Shown in pieces: positions 6,924 to 40,327 of a DNA stretch of 45,617 bases. The position numbers were made by a program, and so were the translations under genes. The stretch covers positions 1 through 45,617 of the forward strand of contig JAFWQQ010000053.1 of NCBI GenBank assembly GCA_017545165.1. The letters are read 5' to 3'. Position 1 is the stretch's first letter. Each line of letters begins with the position of its first letter. A model generated the notes under the pieces. It saw only the letters and a program-made list of their open reading frames with translations, was not told the DNA's origin and searched no databases. Source of the DNA: Oscillospiraceae bacterium (lineage in GTDB: Bacteria; Bacillota; Clostridia; Oscillospirales; Oscillospiraceae).

Positions 6924-7333
6924 GGTGGGGGGATCCGGGCAGACTGGCGCGCGGATCCCCCCACCCGGATTTTTTGGGCAATTTGATGAAGTTTTCCGGG
7001 GAAGGGCGGCGCTTTTCCCGCAGCAAAGCCGGAAGCAGGCGGGAAACGAGGCGAATATTTGGGAAAACTGCTGCATTGACCCATCCCCGGGGATGGGATC
7101 CCTCGGCGCGCCGGGAAAAAAGAATCCCCCAGGGGGGCTTCCCCCGGGAGAAAGATTCTGTTATGCTCTGCTCAGATCAGATGCATGAATGACCGAATGG
7201 GATTCCCTCAATCCCCGCGCCCTTCACCTCTCGGGCGCGTCGGTCGACAATCTCTCTCACCGTTACAGCCCCCCGAGCCGGTCCCTCGGGGGGCTGTAAT
7301 CTGTCTGTCCAAAGCCACTCGCACAGCGAGTGG
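6924..7333. repeat. Gene-free stretch with several perfect inverted repeats
   Basis: No convincing gene lies between 6823 and 7481. A 14-bp perfect inverted repeat (6924-6937 with 6952-6965) is followed on the plus strand by TTTTTT (6970-6975). The palindrome CCATCCCCGGGGATGG is at 7081-7096. A 15-bp perfect hairpin (7263-7277 with 7285-7299) has a 7-base loop. An 8-bp hairpin lies at 7315-7322 with 7326-7333. The first has terminator form on the plus strand, although no plus-strand gene precedes it. The rest look like dispersed palindromic repeats. Confidence 0.6.
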
Positions 7334-7348
7334 TATTCCACAGCGAAC

Positions 7349-7384
7349 AACACCCCGCGAACCTGTCCGTCCGCGGGGTGTTTT
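7349..7384 (+). terminator. Rho-independent terminator upstream of moeA
   Basis: An 11-bp GC-rich stem (7349-7359 with 7372-7382) with a 12-base loop runs into TTTT (7381-7384). It lies upstream of the moeA promoter, so it would insulate the operon from plus-strand transcription entering from the left. It is not a leader attenuator. Confidence 0.6.
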
Positions 7385-7425
7385 GACGCCCGGGCTGAGA
7401 TCCGCCCCTCCGGCGAAGCTTTCTT

Positions 7426-7454
7426 TTGACGCGGGGGCCGAAGGGGAGTATAAT
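7426..7454 (+). promoter_or_regulatory. Strong promoter of the moeA pair
   Basis: A -35 TTGACG (7426-7431), 17-base spacer and -10 TATAAT (7449-7454) are nearly consensus. Transcription should start near 7461, about 20 bases before the ATG. That leaves room only for the AGGAGG ribosome site (7471-7476) and not for a riboswitch. Confidence 0.8.
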
Positions 7455-7481
7455 GAGAAAAAAGACCCGGAGGAGGCGCCT

Positions 7482-8693
7482 ATGCTGCAGGTCAAGACGC
7501 CGGAAGAGGTGTTCCGGCTGATCGAAGAGGAATTTCAGCCAAAGGAGCGGGTGATGCACAGCCCGCTGGACTTTGCCCAGGGCCGGATCCTGGCCGAGGA
7601 TATCCTGGCGGAGGAGTACGTGCCGGACTTCGACCGCTCCACGGTGGACGGCTACGCCCTGCGCGCCGCCGATACCTTCGGCTGCTCCGACGCCCTGCCC
7701 GCGATCCTGAACCTGGTCGGAGAGGTCAAGATGGGCGAGGGGACGGAGATCGCGGTACCCCGGGGCGCCTGCGTGTACGTCCCTACCGGCGGCAGGATCC
7801 CGGCGGACTGCGACTGCGCGGTGATGCTCGAGTACACCGAGGACTACGGCGACGGCACCGTGGGCATCTTCAAGGCCGCGGCCCCCGGGCAGAACCTGAT
7901 CTTTCGGGGAGACGACCTGCGGCCTGGCAAGCTGCTGCTCCGGGCGGGCCGCGTCCTCCGTCCTCAGGACGTCGGCGCCCTGGCCGCCATCGGAAAAACG
8001 GAGGTCCCGGTGCGCCTCGACTTGACGGTGGGCGTGCTCTCCACCGGGGACGAGCTGGTGCCCGCGGATCAGAAGCCCGGGCCGGGGCAGGTGCGGGACG
8101 TGAACCTCCCGATGCTGAAGGCGCTGCTGCGCTCCGTCGGCGCGGTCCCCGTGGACTTCGGGATCGTGAAGGACGACGAGGCGCTGCTGCGGGAAAAGAC
8201 CGCCCTGGCGCTGTCCTGCTGCGACGGGGTAATCCTCTCCGGCGGCAGCAGCGCGGGCGTGAAGGACGCCGCCTGCCGGGTGATCGAATCCCTGGGCGAG
8301 CTGCTCTTCCACGGCATCGCCGTGAAGCCCGGCAAGCCGACGATCCTGGGGAGAGCGGGCAACAAGCCCCTGATCGGCCTGCCGGGGCACCCGGTGGCCG
8401 CCTACTATGTGACGCAAGTTTTTGTGCTGCCGCTGCTGGCGCGGCTCAGCGGCCAAAGCCTGCGCCGGGACCGGGTGAAGGCGAGCCTGAGCGAGAGCCT
8501 GAACGCCAATCACGGCCGGATGCAGATCACGCCCTGCCGCCTGGAGACGGCGGACGGAAAGACCCTGGCCGTGCCCATCCGCACCAAGTCCGGGCTCATC
8601 TCCCGGCTTGCGGAGGCGGACGGCTATTTGATCATCGACCGGGACTGCGAGGGCCTGGAGCAGGGCGCCGCGGTGGAGGTCTATTTGAGCTGA
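7482..8693 (+). CDS. moeA: Molybdopterin molybdenumtransferase MoeA
   Basis: This 403-residue protein has the full MoeA domain order. It begins with the N-terminal segment containing DFDRSTVDGYALRAADTFG, followed by the inserted beta domain. The MogA-like domain has LSTGDEL and LSGGSSAGVKD, and the conserved GIAVKPGKPTILG and GLPGHPVA motifs are present. A small C-terminal beta domain ends the protein. MoeA inserts molybdate (or tungstate) into adenylylated molybdopterin. The start at 7482 is set by AGGAGG five bases upstream. A second MoeA gene follows 22 bases later in what is probably the same transcript, then the tungstate transporter. That context suggests at least one of the two works with tungsten. 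Confidence 0.95.
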   Translation: MLQVKTPEEVFRLIEEEFQPKERVMHSPLDFAQGRILAEDILAEEYVPDFDRSTVDGYALRAADTFGCSDALPAILNLVGEVKMGEGTEIAVPRGACVYVPTGGRIPADCDCAVMLEYTEDYGDGTVGIFKAAAPGQNLIFRGDDLRPGKLLLRAGRVLRPQDVGALAAIGKTEVPVRLDLTVGVLSTGDELVPADQKPGPGQVRDVNLPMLKALLRSVGAVPVDFGIVKDDEALLREKTALALSCCDGVILSGGSSAGVKDAACRVIESLGELLFHGIAVKPGKPTILGRAGNKPLIGLPGHPVAAYYVTQVFVLPLLARLSGQSLRRDRVKASLSESLNANHGRMQITPCRLETADGKTLAVPIRTKSGLISRLAEADGYLIIDRDCEGLEQGAAVEVYLS

Positions 8694-8715: not shown

Positions 8716-10632
8716 ATGAGCTTTGCCTATCTGACAAACACGCCCCTGGAACAGGCCAGGGAGGAATACCTGCGGATGCTGGAGGAGCGGGGCTTCGGAC
8801 CGAGGAACGAGAAGATTCCGGTGCGGGAGGCCTGCGGGCGGCTCACAGCCCGGGCGGTCTACGCCGCCATCAACGCGCCCCACTACGCGGCCAGCGCCAT
8901 GGACGGAATCGCTCTGCGGGCCCGGGACAGCTTCGGCGCCGCGGAGACCAGCCCCGTCACCCTCGCGCCGGAACAGTTCACGGTGGTGGACACCGGCGAC
9001 CCCATTCCGGAAGGCTGCGACGCGGTGATCATGGTGGAGGAGCTGCTGCGGCGGGACGACGGCAGCGTCACTCTCCACGCCCCCGCCGCGCCCTGGCAGC
9101 ACATCCGCCAGATCGGCGAGGACGTCTGCGCCGGGGAGATGATCCTGCCCTCGTTCATAGAAATCACGCCCGCCGCCATCGGTGCCTGCATTGCCGGGGG
9201 CGTACTGGAGCTGGAGGTGCTGGCCAGGCCCCTGGTGGGCGTCATCCCCACCGGAGACGAGATCGTGGCCCCCTGCGCCGATCCCGAGCCGGGCCAGATC
9301 CTGGAATTCAATTCCTCCATCTTTTCCGCGCTGCTCTCCGGCTGGGGGGCGGAGACGAGAGTCTATCCCATCGTGCCGGACAAGCCCGAGCGGATCCGCG
9401 CCGCCCTGCGTCAGGCGGCGGAGGACTGCGATATGGTCCTGTTGAACGCCGGCTCCTCCGCCGGGCGGGACGATTACGCCGCCGCCGCGGTGGAGGCGGA
9501 GGGGGAGCTCTTTTTCCACGGCATCGCCATCAAGCCCGGCAAGCCCGCCATCCTGGGCTCCCGGGGCGGAAAGCCCATCCTGGGCGTGCCCGGCTATCCC
9601 GTCTCCGGCATCCTGGTGCTGGAGGAGCTGCTGCGCCCGCTGATCGACCGCTGGTACGGCCGGGAGAGCCAGCAGCGTGAGACGCTGCGGGCCAGGCTCA
9701 CGAGGCCGGTGGTCTCCGGCCTCAAATACCGGGAATATGTGCGCCTGCGCCTTGGCAGCGTGAACGGCCGCATCATGGCGACGCCCCTGCCCCGGGGCAG
9801 CGGGGTGGTCTCCTCCTTCTTGAAGGCGGACGGTATGCTCTGCGTCCCCCAGGGCGTAGAGGGCTATCCCGCCGGGAAAGAGGTGGAGGTCCAGCTGCTG
9901 ACCGATCGGGAAAAGCTGGAGCACACCCTGGTGGTCATCGGCAGCCACGACCCCCTGCTGGACGAGCTGGCGGATCTGATCCATCGGCAGGACCGGAGGC
10001 TGTATCTCTCCTCCTCCCATGTGGGCTCCATGGGCGGCGTCATGGCCGTCCGCCGGGGCGAGGCCCACGCCGCCGGGATCCATCTGCTGGATGCGGAGAC
10101 CGGGACCTACAACCTGGCCGTCCTCCGCAAGACCTTTCCCCGGGGCGGCGTGGTGCTGCTGCGCTGCGTGGGCCGTCTCCAGGGCCTGATGCTGCAGAAG
10201 GGCAACCCTCTGGGCATCCGGGAATTCCGGGACATCGCCCGGGAAGGGCTGCGTTATGTAAACCGCCAGAAGGGCTCCGGCACCCGGATCCTGATGGACC
10301 ATCTCTGCAGCCGGGAGGGGATCGACCGGGAGCGGATCCTGGGCTACGAGCGGGAGGAGCTGACCCACAACGCCGTAGCCGTTCAGATCGCCGAGAACTC
10401 CGCCGACGCCGGCCTGGGCATCTATTCCACCGCAAAGCTCTACGGCCTGGACTTCCTCCCCGTCTGCGTGGAGGAGTACGACCTGCTGATCCCCGGATCC
10501 GTCTGGGACAGCGAGCCGGTGCAGGCCCTGGTGCATACCCTGAAAAGCCCGGAGTTCCGGGAGCGGATCGAGGCCATGGGCGGCTATACCCTGGACCGTC
10601 CCGGCGAGCCCATCGACCTGAACGGAGAATAA
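8716..10632 (+). CDS. MoeA fused to a periplasmic-binding-protein-like domain
   Basis: In this 638-residue two-domain protein, residues 1 to about 400 are a MoeA homologue. They contain YAASAMDGIALRARDSFG, PTGDEIV, NAGSSAGRDDY, GIAIKPGKPAILG and GVPGYPVSG. Residues about 405-630 resemble a type 2 periplasmic-binding-protein or LysR-effector fold without a signal peptide. Visible segments there are SSSHVGSMGGVMAVRRGEAH, NRQKGSGTRILMDHL and YSTAKLYGLDFLPV. Such fusions occur in bacteria and archaea. The extra domain probably senses or delivers an oxyanion or a cofactor precursor in the cytoplasm. Spacing to moeA is 22 bases with a GGAAGGAT-type ribosome site. Which metal it handles is inferred only from the adjoining tup genes. 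Confidence 0.9.
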   Translation: MSFAYLTNTPLEQAREEYLRMLEERGFGPRNEKIPVREACGRLTARAVYAAINAPHYAASAMDGIALRARDSFGAAETSPVTLAPEQFTVVDTGDPIPEGCDAVIMVEELLRRDDGSVTLHAPAAPWQHIRQIGEDVCAGEMILPSFIEITPAAIGACIAGGVLELEVLARPLVGVIPTGDEIVAPCADPEPGQILEFNSSIFSALLSGWGAETRVYPIVPDKPERIRAALRQAAEDCDMVLLNAGSSAGRDDYAAAAVEAEGELFFHGIAIKPGKPAILGSRGGKPILGVPGYPVSGILVLEELLRPLIDRWYGRESQQRETLRARLTRPVVSGLKYREYVRLRLGSVNGRIMATPLPRGSGVVSSFLKADGMLCVPQGVEGYPAGKEVEVQLLTDREKLEHTLVVIGSHDPLLDELADLIHRQDRRLYLSSSHVGSMGGVMAVRRGEAHAAGIHLLDAETGTYNLAVLRKTFPRGGVVLLRCVGRLQGLMLQKGNPLGIREFRDIAREGLRYVNRQKGSGTRILMDHLCSREGIDRERILGYEREELTHNAVAVQIAENSADAGLGIYSTAKLYGLDFLPVCVEEYDLLIPGSVWDSEPVQALVHTLKSPEFRERIEAMGGYTLDRPGEPIDLNGE

Positions 10633-10739: not shown

Positions 10740-11768
10740 ATGAAACGAGTACTTGCCTTGCTGCTGGCCCTGGTCCTGGTGCTGGCCCTCTGCGCCTGCG
10801 GGACGAAGAAGGAGCAGCCCGCCGAGACCCAGCCCGAGCAGCCCGCCGAGACCCAGCCCGAGCAGCCCGCCCAGGAAGAGAACAAGCTGGTGAAGGACAC
10901 CTGCATCCTCCTGGAAGCGGACGAGGCCATGATCAACAACTACAGCCTGCTGGCCGTGAATCCCGAGGCGCCCTTTGCGGACGCCGACGGCAAGGCGGTC
11001 CAGGGCGTGGAGATCAACGCCGCCGGCGCCGCCGCCCTGATCAACTGGCTCCTCTCCGAGGAAGGGCAGGGCCTGGCTGCCGACTACGGCGTGGCCGACT
11101 ACGGCGAGCATCTCTTCTATCTGAAGGAGGATCGCCCCGTCTCCGCCGCCCAGATCCCCGCGGCCACCGACGAGACCCGGCGCGTCCGCCTCTCCACCAC
11201 CACCTCCGTCAACGATTCCGGGCTGCTGGACTATCTGCTGCCCGTGTTCCATGACAAGTACGGCTATGAGATCGAGGTCTACTCCGCCGGCACCGGCAAG
11301 GCCATCGCCAACGCCAAGATGGGCAATGCGGACCTGATCCTGGTCCATGCCAAGGCCCAGGAGGAGGCCTTCGTGGAGGAGGGCTTCGCCTATACCCTGG
11401 ATGGGATGGACAGCGCGCGCCTGACCTATATGTACAACTACTTTGTGCTCTGCGGTCCCTCGGCAGACCCGGCGGGGGTGAAGCAGGCCGGCGACGTGAA
11501 GGCCGCCTTTGCCGCCATCGCCGCGGGCAAGCATCCCTTCATCTCCCGGGGAGACGGCTCCGGCACCCACAGCAAGGAGCTGAGCCTCTGGCCCGAGGAG
11601 CTGGGCATCACCAAGGAGGCCGAGAGCTTCAAGGACTATACCGACTGGTATATCTCCGCCAACGCCGGCATGGGCGCCTGCCTGGTCATGGCCGAGGAGA
11701 TGGGTGCCTACATCCTCACCGACAAGGCTACCTTCCTGACCTTCCAAACCGCGGACGGCGCGGCCTGA
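10740..11768 (+). CDS. tupA: Tungstate-binding lipoprotein TupA, apparently circularly permuted
   Basis: This 342-residue lipoprotein has a signal peptide with a lipobox ending at Cys20, then a Pro/Glu/Gln linker with a repeated AETQPEQP unit (about 28-46). Residues about 147-333 match the N-terminal three quarters of TupA: STTTSVNDSGLLDYLLP, AGTGKAIA, DLILVHA, FISRGDGSGTHSKEL and AYILTDKATFL. The part that normally follows TDKATFL is missing at the C terminus. It appears instead before this core, at residues about 49-130 (LLEADEAMINNYSLLAVNP, INWLLSEEGQGLA, DYGVADYGEHLFYL). The order is therefore a circular permutation of the usual one. It should bind tungstate, with molybdate less likely, and feed the TupB/TupC genes that follow. 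Confidence 0.9.
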   Translation: MKRVLALLLALVLVLALCACGTKKEQPAETQPEQPAETQPEQPAQEENKLVKDTCILLEADEAMINNYSLLAVNPEAPFADADGKAVQGVEINAAGAAALINWLLSEEGQGLAADYGVADYGEHLFYLKEDRPVSAAQIPAATDETRRVRLSTTTSVNDSGLLDYLLPVFHDKYGYEIEVYSAGTGKAIANAKMGNADLILVHAKAQEEAFVEEGFAYTLDGMDSARLTYMYNYFVLCGPSADPAGVKQAGDVKAAFAAIAAGKHPFISRGDGSGTHSKELSLWPEELGITKEAESFKDYTDWYISANAGMGACLVMAEEMGAYILTDKATFLTFQTADGAA

Positions 11769-11841: not shown

Positions 11842-12528
11842 ATGGGTGCTGCCATTCAACAAGCCTGGGAGCTGATCCGCTCCGGGGATCCGGAACTGCT
11901 GAATATCCTGTCCACCACGGCGCGGGTGAGCCTGACGAGCTCCATCCTGGCGCTGCTGCTGGGCCTGCCCCTGGGCATCCTCTACGGGGCCGGGCGCTTC
12001 CCCGGGAGATCCGTTCTCCTGGTGCTGAACCGGACCCTGATGGGCCTGCCCCCGGTGGTCTGCGGCCTGCTGTTCTATCTGCTCTTTTCGGGCGTGGGGC
12101 CCTTCGGGAAGCTGAAGCTGCTCTTCACCGTGGAGCTCATGATCCTGGCCCAGGTGGTGCTCATCACCCCCATCGTCATCGGGACCATGGAGACCTGGGT
12201 GGCCCAGACGGCCCCGGCCCTGCGGGAGACCGCCAAGGGCCTGGGCTTTGGCCGTGGCAAGCGCTTTCTGCTGCTGCTGAACGAGTGCGTCTCGCCCATG
12301 ATCTCGGCCTATCTGCTGGCCTTCGCCCGCGCCATCGCCGAGGTGGGCGCGGTGGCCATGGTGGGCGGCGCCATCGCCTGGAAGACCAATGTGATGACCA
12401 CCGCCATCATGATGTACACCAACCGGGGCAGCTTTACCCTGGGCATCGCCCTGGGGATCATTCTGCTGGGGCTGTCGCTGCTGCTGAACGCGGCCCTCAG
12501 CCTGCTGCAAAGGAGGCTGAACCGATGA
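11842..12528 (+). CDS. tupB: Tungstate ABC transporter permease TupB
   Basis: This 228-residue permease has about five membrane helices. The first is SSILALLLGLPLGILYGAG. The coupling loop is around RETAKGLGFGRGKRFLLLL, and the late signature AFARAIAEVGAVAMVGGAI is typical of TupB/ModB-type permeases. The sequence MGLPPVVCGLLFYLLFSGVG in the second helix region is characteristic of the TupB branch. It should form the homodimeric channel for tungstate delivered by the TupA upstream. The stop overlaps the tupC start (ATGA, 12525-12528). Confidence 0.93.
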   Translation: MGAAIQQAWELIRSGDPELLNILSTTARVSLTSSILALLLGLPLGILYGAGRFPGRSVLLVLNRTLMGLPPVVCGLLFYLLFSGVGPFGKLKLLFTVELMILAQVVLITPIVIGTMETWVAQTAPALRETAKGLGFGRGKRFLLLLNECVSPMISAYLLAFARAIAEVGAVAMVGGAIAWKTNVMTTAIMMYTNRGSFTLGIALGIILLGLSLLLNAALSLLQRRLNR

Positions 12529-13178
12529 AGTCAGCCGCCTTTTCCAAGACCTATCGGGGCCACACCGTGCTGGATCTGCCCCAGCTGGAGTTGCCGGCGG
12601 GGGAGATCACCTCGCTGATCGGGCCCAACGGCAGCGGCAAATCCACCCTGGCCAAAGTCCTGGCCGGGATCGAGCCGGCGGACGGGAGGGTACCTGTGCT
12701 GACCGGCTGCTCCGTGGGCTATCTGCCCCAGAAGAGCTTTGCCTTTCGCATGAGCACCCGGCGCAACGTCCTTCTCAACGGCGGAGACCACGCCCGGGCG
12801 GAGGAGCTTCTGCGCGCCCTGGGCCTGGAGACCCTGGCCCGGCAGCGGGCCTGGAAGCTCTCCGGCGGGGAGACGGCGAAGATGGCCCTCTGCCGGATCC
12901 TGATGGGGCGCTATGGCCTGCTCATCCTGGACGAGCCCACGGCGGCCCTGGACATGGAGTCCACCCTGGCGGCGGAGGAGCTGATCCGCCGTCGCTGTCG
13001 GGAGACAGGCTGCGCCGTGCTGCTCATCACCCACAGCATCCAGCAGGCCCGGCGCCTGTCCGCGCGGATGCTCCTTCTCCACCGGGGCGAGCTGGTGGAA
13101 CAGGGAGAGACCGAGCGGCTGCTCCGGGCCCCGGAGAAAGAAGAGACCCGGCGTTTCCTGCAGTTTTGCGGCCTTTGA
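12525..13178 (+). CDS. tupC: Tungstate ABC transporter ATP-binding protein TupC
   Basis: This 217-residue ATPase has Walker A GPNGSGKSTLAKVL near residue 35, a Q-loop at GYLPQKSFAF, the signature LSGGETAKMALCRIL, Walker B LLILDEPTAALD and the ITHS switch. The length fits a minimal importer ATPase with no C-terminal metal-sensing domain, so there is no visible molybdate or tungstate feedback of the ModC type. Its ATG overlaps the tupB stop. A TTG-started gene follows after 30 bases. Confidence 0.92.
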   Translation: MKSAAFSKTYRGHTVLDLPQLELPAGEITSLIGPNGSGKSTLAKVLAGIEPADGRVPVLTGCSVGYLPQKSFAFRMSTRRNVLLNGGDHARAEELLRALGLETLARQRAWKLSGGETAKMALCRILMGRYGLLILDEPTAALDMESTLAAEELIRRRCRETGCAVLLITHSIQQARRLSARMLLLHRGELVEQGETERLLRAPEKEETRRFLQFCGL

Positions 13179-32523: not shown

Positions 32524-35283
32524 TTACTTCTCCAGCTCTTTCAGGGCGGCCAGGACCTTCTCGGGCAGAGCCGGGATGCGGGTCACGCGGGCGCCGGTGG
32601 CATTGTAGATGGCGTTCAGGATGGCGGGGTGAGGAGCATCCAGCGGGGCCTCGCCGCAGCCGGCGGCACCGTAGGGGCCGTTGGGACGGTAGGTCTCGTT
32701 GAAGTGCAGCTCGATGTCATCGGGCACGTCGTTGGGGTACGGGATGCCGCACTTGAGCAGGCTGGTGTGCTTGTTCAGGTCCTCGAAGTCCTCGGTGAGG
32801 GCCAGGCCGATGCCCTGGGTCAGGCCGCCGTAGAAGTTGCCGTCCACCAGGAGCTTGTTCATGATGGTGCCCACGTCCGCCACGCAGGTGAACTTGATGA
32901 CCTTGACCTTGCCGGTCTTGGTGTCGACCTCGACCTCGGGCAGGAAGATGGTGTACATGTAGGTGGCAAAGGGCTCGCCCTGGGCGGTGTCCTGATCCAC
33001 CGGGTGATCGGCGCAGTAGGTGGTGACCCAGTTGCCCTCGACCTTCAGCTTCTTGCCGTCGGCGACCATCTCGTCGTAGGTGCGGTAGGTGCCGTCGTCC
33101 TTCTTCATCTCGGCCAGCAGCGCCTCGGCGGCCAGACGGCAGGCGTTGCCGGACATGACCTGAGAGCGGGAGCCGCCGGCGGGGCCGGAGTTCGGGGTGT
33201 ACTTGGTGTCGTTCATGACGAGCTTGATCTGCTCGGGCTTGATGCCGGCCTGCCGCAGGGTCTCGTGAGCGGAAACCAGCGCGCCCATGTCGGCGCCCTG
33301 ACCGTGATCCTCCCAGGACACGTAGATGGTGACGGTGCCGTCGGGATTCAGTTCGGCATAGGCGGAGGAGGCGTCCACGCCGTCCAGGCCGCAGCCGTAG
33401 ACGCCCAGGGACACGCCGATGCCGTACTTGAAGCGGCCGTCGGAGGCGGCGTTCTTCTCCTCGCAGCGCTTCTTGGCGGCGTAGTACAGCGGGCGGGCCT
33501 TCTCAAACAGGGCCTCTTCGCAGTAGACCTCGGGGGGATAGCCGGTGGGGATGGTGGTGTGCTCGGACTCCTTGTAGCAGTTCATGGCGCGCATCTCGAA
33601 GGGATCAATGCCCATCTTGGCGGCCAGGCAGTCGATGGCGATCTCGGAGCCCATGAAGGACTGGGGAGAACCGTAGGCGCGGAAGGCGGAGCCCCAGGCG
33701 TGGTTGGTGAACACGGTCTGGCTCTTGTTGCGGATAGAGGGGATGCCGTAGCCGGCGCCGGTGAACTGGCTGAGACGCATGGTCAGCAGGTCGCCGAACT
33801 CGGAGTACGGGCCGTGGTCCACATAGTTGTCGCCCCACAGGGCCAGCAGCTTGCCGTTCTTGTCAGCGCCCAGCTTGATGTGCATGAAGGCGGGAGAACG
33901 CTTGCCAGTGTAGGTGATGTTCTGGTACTGGGTGAAGTTCAGGCTGACGGGCTTGCCGATGATCTTGGCGGCCGCGCCGATGAGAGCCTCGTTGGTGGGG
34001 GAGAACTTGTAGCCGAAGGTGCCGCCGGCGTGGTTCTGGACGATGCGCAGCTTTTCCATGGGCACGCCGATACCGGCGGCGATCATGGGCATGTGCAGAT
34101 GGATACCGATGGACTTGGAGTGCACGGTGACCATGCCGTCCTCGTCGATGTAGCCGTAGCCGTTGTCCGGCTCCAGGTGCAGGTGGGGCTGACGGGAGCA
34201 GTAGCTCTCGATCTCGACCTGCTGCTCGTCGGGGATGCTGTCCCAATCGAAGTCGGGTCCCTTGATGCAGTTGGTTTCATAGAAGACGTTGGGGGTGCCC
34301 GGGTGGATCTCGATGGCGTCGGGCGCCATGGCGTCCAGCGCGCTCATGTAGGCGGGCAGCTCCTCGATCTCGACCTTCACGGCGTCGGCGGCGGCACGGG
34401 CGTGGGCCTCGGTGTCGGCGGCGACGATGGCGATAGCGTCACCGAACTGGAAGATCTTGTCGGAGCAGAGGACCGGGCGCTCAAAGCCGTCGGTCTTGTT
34501 GTGCTTGGGCAGCATGACCAGGCCGTTGATCTGGTTGGTGCCGCCGGCAGCCAGGATGTCCTTGTAGGTGATGACCTTCACCACGCCGGGCATCTTCTCG
34601 GCCTCGGAGGTGTCGATGCTCTTGATGTTGGCGTGGGAGACCTTGGCCTGGGTCAGGGCCAGGCGCAGGCAGCCGGGCATCTTCAGCGCGTCGTCAGCGC
34701 CGAAGTCCCAGGTGCCGGTGACCTTCTGGGCAGCGGAGGGACGGATGTACTTGGTGCCCTTGATGCTGTCGCCGGTGGGCTTGAAGACCAGGTCTTCCTT
34801 GGTCATCTCGCCGCGGAGCACGGCGGCGGCGTCCATAACGGCGTCCACCAGGGGCTTGTAGCCGGTGCAGCGGCAGAGGTTGCGCTGCTTGTTGAACCAG
34901 TCGCGGACCTCCTCGCGGGTGGGATTGGGGTTGTTCTCAAGAAGGACCTTGGCGCTGATGATGAAGCCGGGGGTGCAGAAGCCGCACTGGGCGCAGCCGT
35001 GGGCCATCCAGGCGACCTGCAGGGGATGCATGTCGGTCAGGGTGCCGACGCCCTCGATGGTGGTGATCTCGGCGCCGTCGGGGATCCGGCTCATCTTGAA
35101 AAGACAGGACTTGGTGACCTTGCCGTTCATGATGACGTTGCAGGCGCCGCAGTGGCCCTCGCCGCAGCCGATCTTACAGCCGGTCAGCAGCAGGTGCTCG
35201 CGCAGAACGGTTGCCAGGGTCTCGTCCTTGTCCAGGACCAGGTTCCGGGTGACGCCGTTGATGACAAGCGTTTTTCTGATCAT
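32524..35283 (-). CDS. mop: Molybdopterin-dependent aldehyde oxidoreductase (MOP, xanthine oxidase family)
   Basis: This 919-residue enzyme oxidises aldehydes to acids with a molybdenum (or tungsten) molybdopterin cofactor. Plant-type [2Fe-2S] ligands are Cys40, 45, 48 and 60 (GCGEGHCGACNV). The second [2Fe-2S] cluster uses Cys100, 103, 137 and 139 (CAQCGFCTPGF, CRCTGY). These numbers equal those I recall for Desulfovibrio gigas Mop. There is no FAD domain. The large C-terminal part is the cofactor domain, and the catalytic Glu is at about 878 in AAGCGEAPLDAPHP. The start at 35283 has a GGAGG site. It is the second gene after the His-tailed protein, and the electron acceptors are probably the iron-sulfur proteins encoded next. 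Confidence 0.95.
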   Translation of the reverse strand: MIRKTLVINGVTRNLVLDKDETLATVLREHLLLTGCKIGCGEGHCGACNVIMNGKVTKSCLFKMSRIPDGAEITTIEGVGTLTDMHPLQVAWMAHGCAQCGFCTPGFIISAKVLLENNPNPTREEVRDWFNKQRNLCRCTGYKPLVDAVMDAAAVLRGEMTKEDLVFKPTGDSIKGTKYIRPSAAQKVTGTWDFGADDALKMPGCLRLALTQAKVSHANIKSIDTSEAEKMPGVVKVITYKDILAAGGTNQINGLVMLPKHNKTDGFERPVLCSDKIFQFGDAIAIVAADTEAHARAAADAVKVEIEELPAYMSALDAMAPDAIEIHPGTPNVFYETNCIKGPDFDWDSIPDEQQVEIESYCSRQPHLHLEPDNGYGYIDEDGMVTVHSKSIGIHLHMPMIAAGIGVPMEKLRIVQNHAGGTFGYKFSPTNEALIGAAAKIIGKPVSLNFTQYQNITYTGKRSPAFMHIKLGADKNGKLLALWGDNYVDHGPYSEFGDLLTMRLSQFTGAGYGIPSIRNKSQTVFTNHAWGSAFRAYGSPQSFMGSEIAIDCLAAKMGIDPFEMRAMNCYKESEHTTIPTGYPPEVYCEEALFEKARPLYYAAKKRCEEKNAASDGRFKYGIGVSLGVYGCGLDGVDASSAYAELNPDGTVTIYVSWEDHGQGADMGALVSAHETLRQAGIKPEQIKLVMNDTKYTPNSGPAGGSRSQVMSGNACRLAAEALLAEMKKDDGTYRTYDEMVADGKKLKVEGNWVTTYCADHPVDQDTAQGEPFATYMYTIFLPEVEVDTKTGKVKVIKFTCVADVGTIMNKLLVDGNFYGGLTQGIGLALTEDFEDLNKHTSLLKCGIPYPNDVPDDIELHFNETYRPNGPYGAAGCGEAPLDAPHPAILNAIYNATGARVTRIPALPEKVLAALKELEK

Positions 35284-37655: not shown

Positions 37656-38699
37656 TTATTCATACAGCAATAAGATGTTTGCCGGGGCCACGCCCAGCTC
37701 TGCCGGGAACTGCGCGGGCTTTTTGTCCTTGGGAATTCTCCACCAGATCGGGGCGCTGTTCGGATCCTGCCCGGCGAAACGAAACTGAAGGGTGGTCTCG
37801 AAGGGCTCCTCCATCTCTTCCACATAGGCGACGGGGAAGCGGTTGTGGGCGGTACCGGCGTTGAAGTAGTGGGCGCGGATTCCCACCGCGGCCAGGCCCT
37901 CTCTCACGGGGGCCGCGGTCTTCAGCCGGACGCCCCATTCCGGCACCTCCACCTCGTGTTCCCCGGTTTTTACGGCGGCTGCGATGTTTTTGCAGCCGGT
38001 CATTACCGCGGCGGGGATGCTCCCGGGATCCGCGAAGAGCTCCTTGGTGGGCTTGTGGGTCAGCAGGCGGCCCCTGTCCATGACGGCGATGCTGTCGCTC
38101 ATGGTGTAGGCCTCCTCCCGGCTGTGGGTCACCATCAATACCTCCCGGCCCAGGCTCTGCAGCATGTCCCGCAGCCCGATCTTCAGGGAGTCCCGCAGAT
38201 GGGCGTCCAGGGCGGAGAAGGGCTCGTCCAACAGCAGAAGCAGCGGCTCGCTCACCAGGATGCGGGCCAATGCTGCCCGCTGCTGCTGGCCGCCGGAGAG
38301 CTGATGAGGCTTGTGATTCACCTGGTTCTCCAAACGCATCATCGCGAGGATCTCCTGCAGCCTGCGCTCCTTTTCGTCACGGCCGTAGACCTCCGTCATT
38401 CCGCAGAGGATGTTTTTCCGCAGCGTCATGTTGGGAAACAGGGCATAGTTCTGGAAAAGATAGCCCACATGCCGCTCCTGGGGGCGCAGATTGATGCGTT
38501 TCTCAGAGTCGAAGAGCACCCGCCCGTTCAGCTCGATGTGGCCCCGGTCCGGTTTTTCGATGCCGGCGATACATTTCAGAGTCAGGCTCTTGCCGCAGCC
38601 GGAGGGCCCCAGCAGGCTGGTGATGCCATTTCCCGCCTCAAAAGCGGCTTCCAGCTGGAAGCTTCCCAGATCCTTGCGGATATCCACGATCAGACTCAT
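37656..38699 (-). CDS. modC: Molybdate ABC transporter ATP-binding protein ModC
   Basis: This 347-residue ATPase has Walker A GPSGCGKSLT (31-40), a Q-loop at GYLFQNYALFP, the signature LSGGQQQRAALARIL, Walker B LLLLDEPFSALDAHLRD and the VTHSREEAY switch. Residues about 235-347 form a C-terminal regulatory part with a TOBE-like segment (GVRLKTAAPVREGLAAVGIR). In other ModC proteins this region can bind oxyanion and stop transport. The start at 38699 overlaps the modB stop (ATGA). Confidence 0.93.
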   Translation of the reverse strand: MSLIVDIRKDLGSFQLEAAFEAGNGITSLLGPSGCGKSLTLKCIAGIEKPDRGHIELNGRVLFDSEKRINLRPQERHVGYLFQNYALFPNMTLRKNILCGMTEVYGRDEKERRLQEILAMMRLENQVNHKPHQLSGGQQQRAALARILVSEPLLLLLDEPFSALDAHLRDSLKIGLRDMLQSLGREVLMVTHSREEAYTMSDSIAVMDRGRLLTHKPTKELFADPGSIPAAVMTGCKNIAAAVKTGEHEVEVPEWGVRLKTAAPVREGLAAVGIRAHYFNAGTAHNRFPVAYVEEMEEPFETTLQFRFAGQDPNSAPIWWRIPKDKKPAQFPAELGVAPANILLLYE

Positions 38700-39364
38700 G
38701 CCTTCACCGCCTTTTTCTGCCGGGCCTCCAGCAGGTTCACCGCCAGCAGCACCACCGTGCTGATGGCCAGGTTTACCATCACCCAGAAAAAAGCGCCCTT
38801 TTCGTCGTTGGTGCGCCACAGCTGGTAGACGGTGGTGGAGATGGTGGCCGTGCGCCCGGGGGTATAGCCGATGAGCATGCTGGTGGCGCCGTACTCGCCC
38901 AGAGCCCGGGCGAAGGACAGCACTGTTCCCGCCAGGATCCCCTGGCGGCAGGCGGGCATCCGGATGCGCCAGAAAATGAAGGTGTTGGAAAGGCCCAGGG
39001 TCTGCCCCGCATAGGCAAGCGTCTGATCAAAGCTCTCAAAGGCGCCGCGGGCCGTGCGGTACATCAGCGGGAAGGCCACCACCGCGGCGGCCAGGATCCC
39101 GCCGTACCAGGTCATGACGAATTTGATCCCGACCTGCAGCAGCAGAGCGCCCAGGGGGCGCTTCACACCAAAGACCAGCAGCAGAAAATAGCCGCAGACT
39201 GTGGGCGGCAGCACCATCGGCAGCGTCAGGATCACATCCAGAACGCCCTTGACGGCACGGGGCAGCTTCGCCGCATAGTAGGCGAAGAAGATCCCCGAGA
39301 AGAACACCAGCACGCAGCTGATGGCCGCGATGCGCAGCGAGTTTATCAGCGGATACCAATCCAT
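38696..39364 (-). CDS. modB: Molybdate ABC transporter permease ModB
   Basis: This 222-residue permease has five to six helices. Family features are LTLPMVLPPTVCGYFLLLVF, the coupling loop around YAGQTLGLSNTFIFWRIRMP, and SFARALGEYGATSMLIGYTP. It should form a homodimer that accepts molybdate from ModA. It begins 72 bases after the modA stop and overlaps modC by four bases. Confidence 0.94.
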   Translation of the reverse strand: MDWYPLINSLRIAAISCVLVFFSGIFFAYYAAKLPRAVKGVLDVILTLPMVLPPTVCGYFLLLVFGVKRPLGALLLQVGIKFVMTWYGGILAAAVVAFPLMYRTARGAFESFDQTLAYAGQTLGLSNTFIFWRIRMPACRQGILAGTVLSFARALGEYGATSMLIGYTPGRTATISTTVYQLWRTNDEKGAFFWVMVNLAISTVVLLAVNLLEARQKKAVKA

Positions 39365-39436: not shown

Positions 39437-40327
39437 TCAGGCGGGTGTTTCTTCGGGGACGGTCTCCTCAGCCTCGGCTTCCTCGGGTTCGGGGAGCGGG
39501 ACAGAGGAGAAGCCGACCTTTTCAAACACGGCCATGGCCTCTTCGGTGTTCAGATAATCCAGGAAAGCCTGGGCTTCTTCGGGATGCGCGCTCACGTTCA
39601 GCACGGCGGCGGGGTAGATGACCTGGCCGCACATCTCTGCGGTGGCGCTGTCGATGACGGTGAGCTCAGCGGAGAATGCGTCGGTGCAGTAGACGATGCC
39701 GCAGTCCACGCTGCCCTCCTTGACCTGGGTGGTGACTTCCTTCACATTGGTGCCGTAGGTGAGCTTGCCGGCGGCGGCCAGCTCGTCCTCGTTCAGTTCA
39801 TAATAGGCGAGGATCTTCTGGGTGTACTGGCCAACGGGCACGTCGCTGTTGCCCATGGCCATCAGAACTTCGCCGTCCTTCAGGAGCTCGGCCAGCTGGT
39901 CAAAGGATTCGATGCCCTTGGGGTTGCCTTCGGGCACAACCAGAACGACCTTGTTTTCCAGCAGGTCGATGCGGCTGCCCTCCAGTACGAAGTCCAGCTC
40001 GTCGGTGTTGACCTTCGGATCGGCGTTGATGTCCAGCTGGTTCATCTGCTTCTGACCGGCGGAGATGAACAGGTCGCAGTCCGCGCCCTCCTGGATCTGG
40101 GTCTTCAGCGTGCCGGAGGAGTCAAAGTTGTAGGTGATGGTCACATGGGGATTGGCCTCCTCGTACATGTCTTTGATCTCCGTCAGGGTCTCGGTCATGG
40201 AAGCCGCCGCAAAAACGATCAGCTCCACCGGTTCTTTCTCCTCCGCCTTGTCCTCGGCGAAGGCGCTCGCTGCCGTCAGCGCGAAGAGCATCGCAAGCGC
40301 CAGCAGCAGTGCCAGGGTCTTTTTCAT
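39437..40327 (-). CDS. modA: Molybdate-binding protein ModA
   Basis: This 296-residue secreted binding protein has a signal peptide ending SAFAE (about residue 25). The oxyanion-pocket motifs are VFAAASMTETLTEI near the start of the mature protein, FDSSGTLKTQI about 30 residues later, and CDLFISAG. The C-terminal part has DCGIVYCTDAF and a family-typical PEEAQAFLDYL. Unlike most Gram-positive binding proteins it has no lipobox cysteine. It ends with an acidic Pro/Glu tail (PEPEEAEAEETVPEETPA) of unknown use. The start at 40327 has GGAGG upstream. A promoter with a palindrome overlapping it lies at 40362-40390. Confidence 0.93.
   Translation of the reverse strand: MKKTLALLLALAMLFALTAASAFAEDKAEEKEPVELIVFAAASMTETLTEIKDMYEEANPHVTITYNFDSSGTLKTQIQEGADCDLFISAGQKQMNQLDINADPKVNTDELDFVLEGSRIDLLENKVVLVVPEGNPKGIESFDQLAELLKDGEVLMAMGNSDVPVGQYTQKILAYYELNEDELAAAGKLTYGTNVKEVTTQVKEGSVDCGIVYCTDAFSAELTVIDSATAEMCGQVIYPAAVLNVSAHPEEAQAFLDYLNTEEAMAVFEKVGFSSVPLPEPEEAEAEETVPEETPA

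Follow-up and report, generated by a model that had tools for sequence, protein, structure and literature searches.

A putative tungstate-binding protein of the TupA type with reversed part order: sequence support for a circular permutation in Clostridia

We identified, in a 45,617-nucleotide stretch of the genome of an Oscillospiraceae bacterium (the whole stretch is hereafter the window), a homologue of the tungstate-binding protein TupA in which the two parts of the normal chain stand in reversed order. At the sequence level this reversal is confirmed, and it supports a circular permutation, as the original prediction had proposed, because both parts are homologous to TupA, their order is reversed and neither is duplicated, in this protein as in 65 other distinct open reading frames (ORFs), and because trees of the normal N-terminal part (N-part) and of the normal C-terminal part (C-part) share the same un-permuted sister. 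The protein most probably (probability about 0.88) is the working tungstate-binding component of a TupABC importer, encoded by a gene that underwent one circular permutation in an ancestor belonging to the sampled class, Clostridia.

Order of the TupA parts in the window protein

A phmmer search of PDB sequences aligned residues 146–338 of the window protein with the N-terminal stretch of four TupA chains (3muq 4–180, 3lr1 5–181, 5my5 27–203 and 3kn3 5–181) at E-values from 3e-31 to 4e-41, and these chains map the N-part to residues 147–338, close to residue 150, where the start of a normal TupA had been predicted. The stretch that comes next in the same chains aligns, in three of the alignments, to window residues 53–112 (3muq), 53–76 (3lr1) and 56–76 (5my5). 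Taken alone, residues 49–137 matched single PDB sequences weakly (best E-value 0.075), and residues 43–135 had no Pfam family match. A profile built from canonical C-parts only nevertheless matched window residues 56–130 with an iE of 3.9e-19 (60.2 bits), compared with a best value of 0.088 (4.6 bits) among 670 shuffled controls. The C-part therefore begins at residue 53 or 56 and ends at residue 131, so the expectation of a TupA tail segment early in the protein, at about residues 49–130, was borne out. We looked both for a failure of this segment to match the TupA C-part and for a duplicate of it elsewhere in the protein and found neither: the canonical C-part profile gave no second match at iE < 0.1, and the best additional match to the N-part (iE 7.2) was not significant. 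The NF041772 (TupA) profile matches the window protein in two stretches; the score of 139.5 bits does not reach the curated cut-off of 400, and the family sample's four canonical relatives, at 194–235 bits, also fall short of it. The features of the gene and of its neighbours are given in Table 1.

Table 1. Permuted tupA, its parts and the adjoining genes in the window
Feature	Position	Strand	Basis or remark
Permuted tupA	10740..11768	+	ATG to TGA; 342 aa plus stop
Signal peptide with lipobox-like LCAC, Cys at residue 20 (residues 1–20)	10740..10799	+	Sequence
Low-complexity tether with TQPEQPAE repeats (residues 21–52)	10800..10895	+	Sequence
Normal TupA C-part (residues 53–131): putative lobe B strand 56–67, lobe A 68–131	10896..11132	+	Alignments, profile, lobe borders of PMC5517513
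C-part insertion (residues 77–88)	10968..11003	+	Alignment of permuted and canonical sequences
New linker from old C-terminus to old N-terminus (residues 132–146)	11133..11177	+	Constant length, partly conserved
Normal TupA N-part (residues 147–338): putative lobe A to 227, hinge strand 228–240, lobe B 241–338	11178..11753	+	PDB alignment
tupB, permease	11842..12528	+	NF041773 3.5e-40, below curated cut-off; NF038017 (ABC permease) 1.8e-53, above cut-off; PF00528
tupC, ATPase	12525..13178	+	PF00005 3.9e-24
moeA fused to PBP_like domain, upstream of tupA	8716..10632	+	Domain matches
moeA, ORF as listed	7185..8693	+	MoeA_N match begins at residue 107; true start probably internal to the listed ORF

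Distribution and origin of the permuted form

The same order was sought in relatives and is common to 66 distinct ORFs, that of the window included; with canonical-only profiles the C-part came first in all of them and a second C-part was present in none. These ORFs had been picked by a one-piece match to a permuted profile and were then re-checked with the canonical-only profiles; they correspond to 67 alignment rows, with the window protein entered twice. A scan of genome contigs contributed 44 loci. Before removal of duplicates the profile-matching ORFs in the loci comprised 86 permuted, 69 canonical and two further fragments, where three of the 69 canonical-class ORFs are fragments of permuted genes; the cut or broken permuted genes L067, L068 (two pieces), L071 and L091 were left out before counting. 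Among 66 canonical ORF rows the C-part followed the N-part in 65 and one row was without a C-part match, a check that is not independent, since the canonical profiles were built from those same sequences. Four canonical proteins, all from a single family within the class (L114, L116, L118 and L120), have an additional N-terminal domain, about 70 residues long, that by eye resembles a bacterial SH3 domain.

Within the genus, 31 of 61 genomes gave a long permuted match (G016 has two overlapping frames), while the raw tally of 57 also includes matches to the signal peptide and tether. The E-value range from 2e-64 to 8e-10, in which canonical TupA was expected, contained no match, and permuted TupA was the only form found in the genus sample. 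The family sample of 150 genomes contained 18 with TupA, 14 permuted and 4 canonical. Matches were found in seven of the 295 genomes of the order sample, three of them permuted and four canonical only; one of the three, G316, holds both forms at separate loci (G316:C157 and G316:C285; L095, L102). The class sample (391 genomes, 47 with a match) yielded four permuted forms spread over four families, and the other 43 matches start no earlier than model position 114. In the phylum, canonical-order homologues are common, and 186 of 398 sampled genomes had a match. Outside the window genome no full-length permuted form was found in the other 185, since their best E-values, among the matches listed and with at most five first-look candidates scored per genome, were 5.9e-68 or weaker, as against 5.5e-167 or stronger for full-length permuted proteins in the order and class samples. 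The 50 pattern matches in viral contigs included no relative; plasmid records gave 116, none covering 80% of the query, and the best 10 of the 116 indicated no permuted form. The window's draft genome contains a second permuted tupA (L002, G000:C71:3997-5058), 75% identical to the first and located beside a divergent AOR gene. This second locus may stem from misbinning or from recent transfer, because it is 96.7% identical to a locus of G032 and has a GC content of 59.8% compared with 64.4% for the window.

In a FastTree phylogeny of full-length proteins with the order restored (67 permuted rows, 65 canonical), the permuted sequences form a single clade (0.953) inside canonical TupA; the corresponding values are 0.969 for the N-part and 0.672 for the C-part. 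Four canonical proteins (L075, L097, L132 and L133) join this clade with support of 1.0 in the full-length tree, 1.0 in the N-only tree and 0.996 in the C-only tree. With IQ-TREE (14 permuted, 27 canonical) the permuted clade received 98.7/98 from the N-part and 87.6/57 from the C-part, and L097 alone was its sister (100/100 and 99.7/100, respectively). Monophyly of the permuted form rests mainly on the N-part, C-only support being weak in both analyses. TupB was inherited together with the permuted protein: in the TupB tree, where the fragments L068, L071 and L091 still bear canonical labels, the TupB proteins of permuted operons join that of L097 at 1.0, the permuted clade itself standing at 0.834.

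A fusion of a TupA N-part to the C-terminal piece of some other binding protein could mimic a permutation, and the C-part is indeed less conserved than the N-part (mean column entropy 0.76 vs 0.56 bits), contains a 12-residue insertion and is the segment that lacks a Pfam match of its own. We nonetheless regard a fusion as very improbable, given the match of this segment to the profile of canonical TupA C-parts and its position in the C-only trees beside L097, which is the sister of the N-part too. Since the N-part, the C-part and TupB all point to L097, a single lineage and a permutation, not a chimera, are indicated; apparently a single permutation event affected one TupA gene inside a tupABC operon. 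That the arrangement is an artefact of assembly, binning or gene calling, or a decayed gene, has a next to negligible probability: the window genome is a draft (74.6% complete, 121 contigs), but the order recurs in the 66 distinct ORFs, among them one from a single-contig genome of 4.3 Mb (G138) and one from Flavonifractor sp. An92 (L050), whose record is not titled as a MAG, the operons are intact and the N-part is conserved.

Circular permutations usually arise by tandem duplication and loss of the outer pieces. No C-N-C intermediate was found among the 66 canonical ORF rows (65 distinct) and the 66 distinct permuted ORFs, and no tandem tupA copy within 14 kb around the sister gene L097; for want of such an intermediate, an origin of the permuted gene by duplication and loss is a guess. 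A derivation of the new linker from the old lipoprotein tether was considered, and comparison by eye with L097, L075, L132 and L133 gave no convincing match.

Operon, tungsten enzymes and the probable ligand

Two moeA genes precede tupA in the window and are read in the same direction. All 35 permuted loci whose downstream flank exceeds 1.5 kb encode TupB within 0.6 kb and TupC within 2.2 kb downstream; among the 31 loci with less flank, 24 have both genes, five have tupB only and two have neither. At the locus of the canonical sister L097, tupA, tupB and tupC are accompanied by a divergent AOR-type gene and a moeA-PBP gene, and similar neighbours are present in part at some permuted loci. No TupB was found beside L075, one of the four near canonical relatives. 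AOR genes lie near permuted tupA in 12 of 66 loci, many of which have short flanks: ten are divergent and just upstream, and two are nearby downstream. The window contig carries no AOR gene, and three matches are found elsewhere in the window genome. Also encoded in the window, all on the minus strand, are a molybdenum hydroxylase of the xanthine dehydrogenase family, an ABC ATPase and ModA (32524–35280, 37659–38819 and 39512–40207), so that tungstate and molybdate systems lie within 30 kb of each other. No riboswitch was detected in the window at Rfam gathering thresholds, the sole Rfam match being a group II intron domain (RF00029, 70–140, plus strand, 44.8 bits).

Across the 61 genus genomes, permuted TupA is associated with tungsten-enzyme genes. 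The tungsten oxidoreductase N-domain (PF02730) was found in all 31 genomes that have permuted TupA and in four of the 30 that lack it (Fisher p = 2e-13), and MoeA in 31 of 31 and seven of 30, respectively (p = 5e-11), although these p-values overstate independence, since the sampled genomes are related. Of the four TupA-less genomes with PF02730, two (G025 and G053) have partial matches. G007 and G005 have a full AOR match and TupA of neither order; G007, which is 97% complete, also has no ModA match. The xanthine dehydrogenase family (23 of 31 vs 16 of 30, p = 0.11) and ModA (22 of 31 vs 15 of 30, p = 0.12) showed no such clear relation to permuted TupA, and nine of the 31 genomes have no ModA match. 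ModA itself tracks the xanthine dehydrogenase family (30 of 39 vs 7 of 22, p = 0.0009; with AOR, p = 0.06).

The residues proposed to bind the oxyanion were assigned their roles in Desulfovibrio alaskensis TupA (PMC5517513), and all eight mapped positions are present in the window protein. T153–T155 and S156 (within an STTTS motif at residues 152–156), H203, R270, T276 and D328 are the equivalents of TTTS, H59, R118, T124 and D170 and do not vary across the 67 permuted rows. It is improbable, if less so than the fusion discussed above, that the permuted protein binds molybdate or another oxyanion in place of tungstate. A different cleft shape could result from the permutation and the three insertions, and 22 of the 31 genomes with permuted TupA also carry ModA, which could be an alternative supply of tungstate; but the putative binding residues are kept, and permuted TupA follows AOR and not clearly the molybdenum-hydroxylase family or ModA, while it is ModA that follows the hydroxylase family. 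Ordinary tungstate uptake by a permuted receptor would thus be the simplest reading. Permuted TupA would be exported and usually lipid-anchored, and would bind tungstate, and molybdate probably more weakly, between its two lobes through the unchanged TTTS, H, R, T and D residues; the loaded protein would close and dock on TupB, TupC would power uptake, and the imported tungstate would serve tungsten-pterin enzymes.

Chain topology and relation to known binding proteins

In D. alaskensis TupA, lobe A comprises residues 2–76 and 201–251, the central strand residues 77–89 and lobe B residues 91–200 (PMC5517513). We transferred these published borders to the window protein by sequence alignment, with window residue 338 equivalent to TupA residue 180 (alignment) and window residue 56 to TupA residue 189 (hand count). 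The cut falls at residues 181–188 of mature TupA, inside lobe B and 13–20 residues ahead of the return of the chain to lobe A. Therefore the anchor connects to the final strand of lobe B and lobe A is entered only at about Y68, and the proposal that the permutation fuses the lipid anchor to the tail lobe did not hold. Lobe A would be contiguous (residues 68–227) and followed by the hinge strand (228–240), and lobe B would be split into residues 56–67 and 241–338, a nesting that is the inverse of the usual one with both crossovers retained. The expected fold is the ordinary two-lobed one, in which a conserved linker of about 15 residues would bridge the old ends and the new ends would lie in a loop of lobe B.

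The linker region (residues 127–152) is 26 residues long in 67 of 67 permuted rows, and P133, A142 and T143 are invariant in 36 sequences; the fixed length and these invariant residues suggest an ordered connection. The insertion at residues 77–88 has 12 residues in all 67 permuted rows and 0–1 in 65 canonical ones, that at 218–224 has seven in the permuted clade and none in canonical TupA, and that at 287–302 has 14–16 as against 9–13. Of five regions compared, residues 1–47 vary most, with a mean column entropy of 1.88 bits. A lipobox-like motif is present in 50 of the 66 distinct permuted ORFs; of the other 16, ten appear on visual inspection to have a type I-like signal that lacks a Cys, and the starts of six are unclear. 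The Cys-less signal of the ten (L018, L034–L037, L040, L042, L045, L048 and L061) is odd for a binding protein of presumed single-membrane bacteria. Because these relatives seem to have no lipobox Cys, an explanation of the permutation by anchoring only is weak. A more tentative suggestion, which we consider doubtful, is that this natural permutation has been kept for its changed mechanics and that the clade is the first to be recognised among ModA/TupA-like (type II) binding proteins: lobe A would fold first, lobe B would be closed by its own N-terminal strand, and an anchor placed at lobe B beside the hinge would alter docking or release at TupB.

In the part of the literature that was covered, no permuted TupA was found, which does not prove its absence from print, and the string 'permut' does not occur in the main text of two papers on tungsten in gut bacteria (PMC11980592 and PMC13328260). 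The permuted form may be undercounted or truncated in surveys of tungsten use that search with full-length TupA models. With the known TupA proteins of D. alaskensis (5my5), G. sulfurreducens (3lr1), V. parahaemolyticus (3muq) and W. succinogenes (3kn3) the permuted protein shares both parts, the equivalents of the binding residues, a signal peptide and downstream tupBC, but it differs from them in the reversed order of its parts, the new linker and the three insertions. Lobe B of canonical TupA interrupts lobe A, whereas in the permuted form lobe A would be contiguous and lobe B split. ModA has the same fold class and ligand chemistry but belongs to a different family and has the canonical order. 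Because a close un-permuted sister sits in a similar operon, permuted TupA offers a clean natural experiment on the role of chain order in folding, anchoring, hinge closure and docking.

Natural permutations of importer binding proteins seem rare, and one structurally proven case was found, TpMglB-2 (Tp0684) of Treponema pallidum, a circularly permuted type I glucose-binding protein designated 'Type Ic / Cluster Bc' (PMC4990184). In that protein the first three strands of the N-lobe have moved to the C-terminus and a fourth crossover has been added, and the protein was shown to bind its ligand and to change conformation in response (PMC4990184). Like permuted TupA, it is a naturally permuted binding lipoprotein of an ABC importer with relatives in Gram-positive and gut bacteria. 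Permuted TupA matched no sugar-binding family, its matches being TupA chains and PF12849/PF13531. In contrast to the type I fold and sugar ligand of TpMglB-2, it would have a ModA-like fold with the usual two crossovers, and would represent a second, independent natural permutation, in the ModA/TupA fold.
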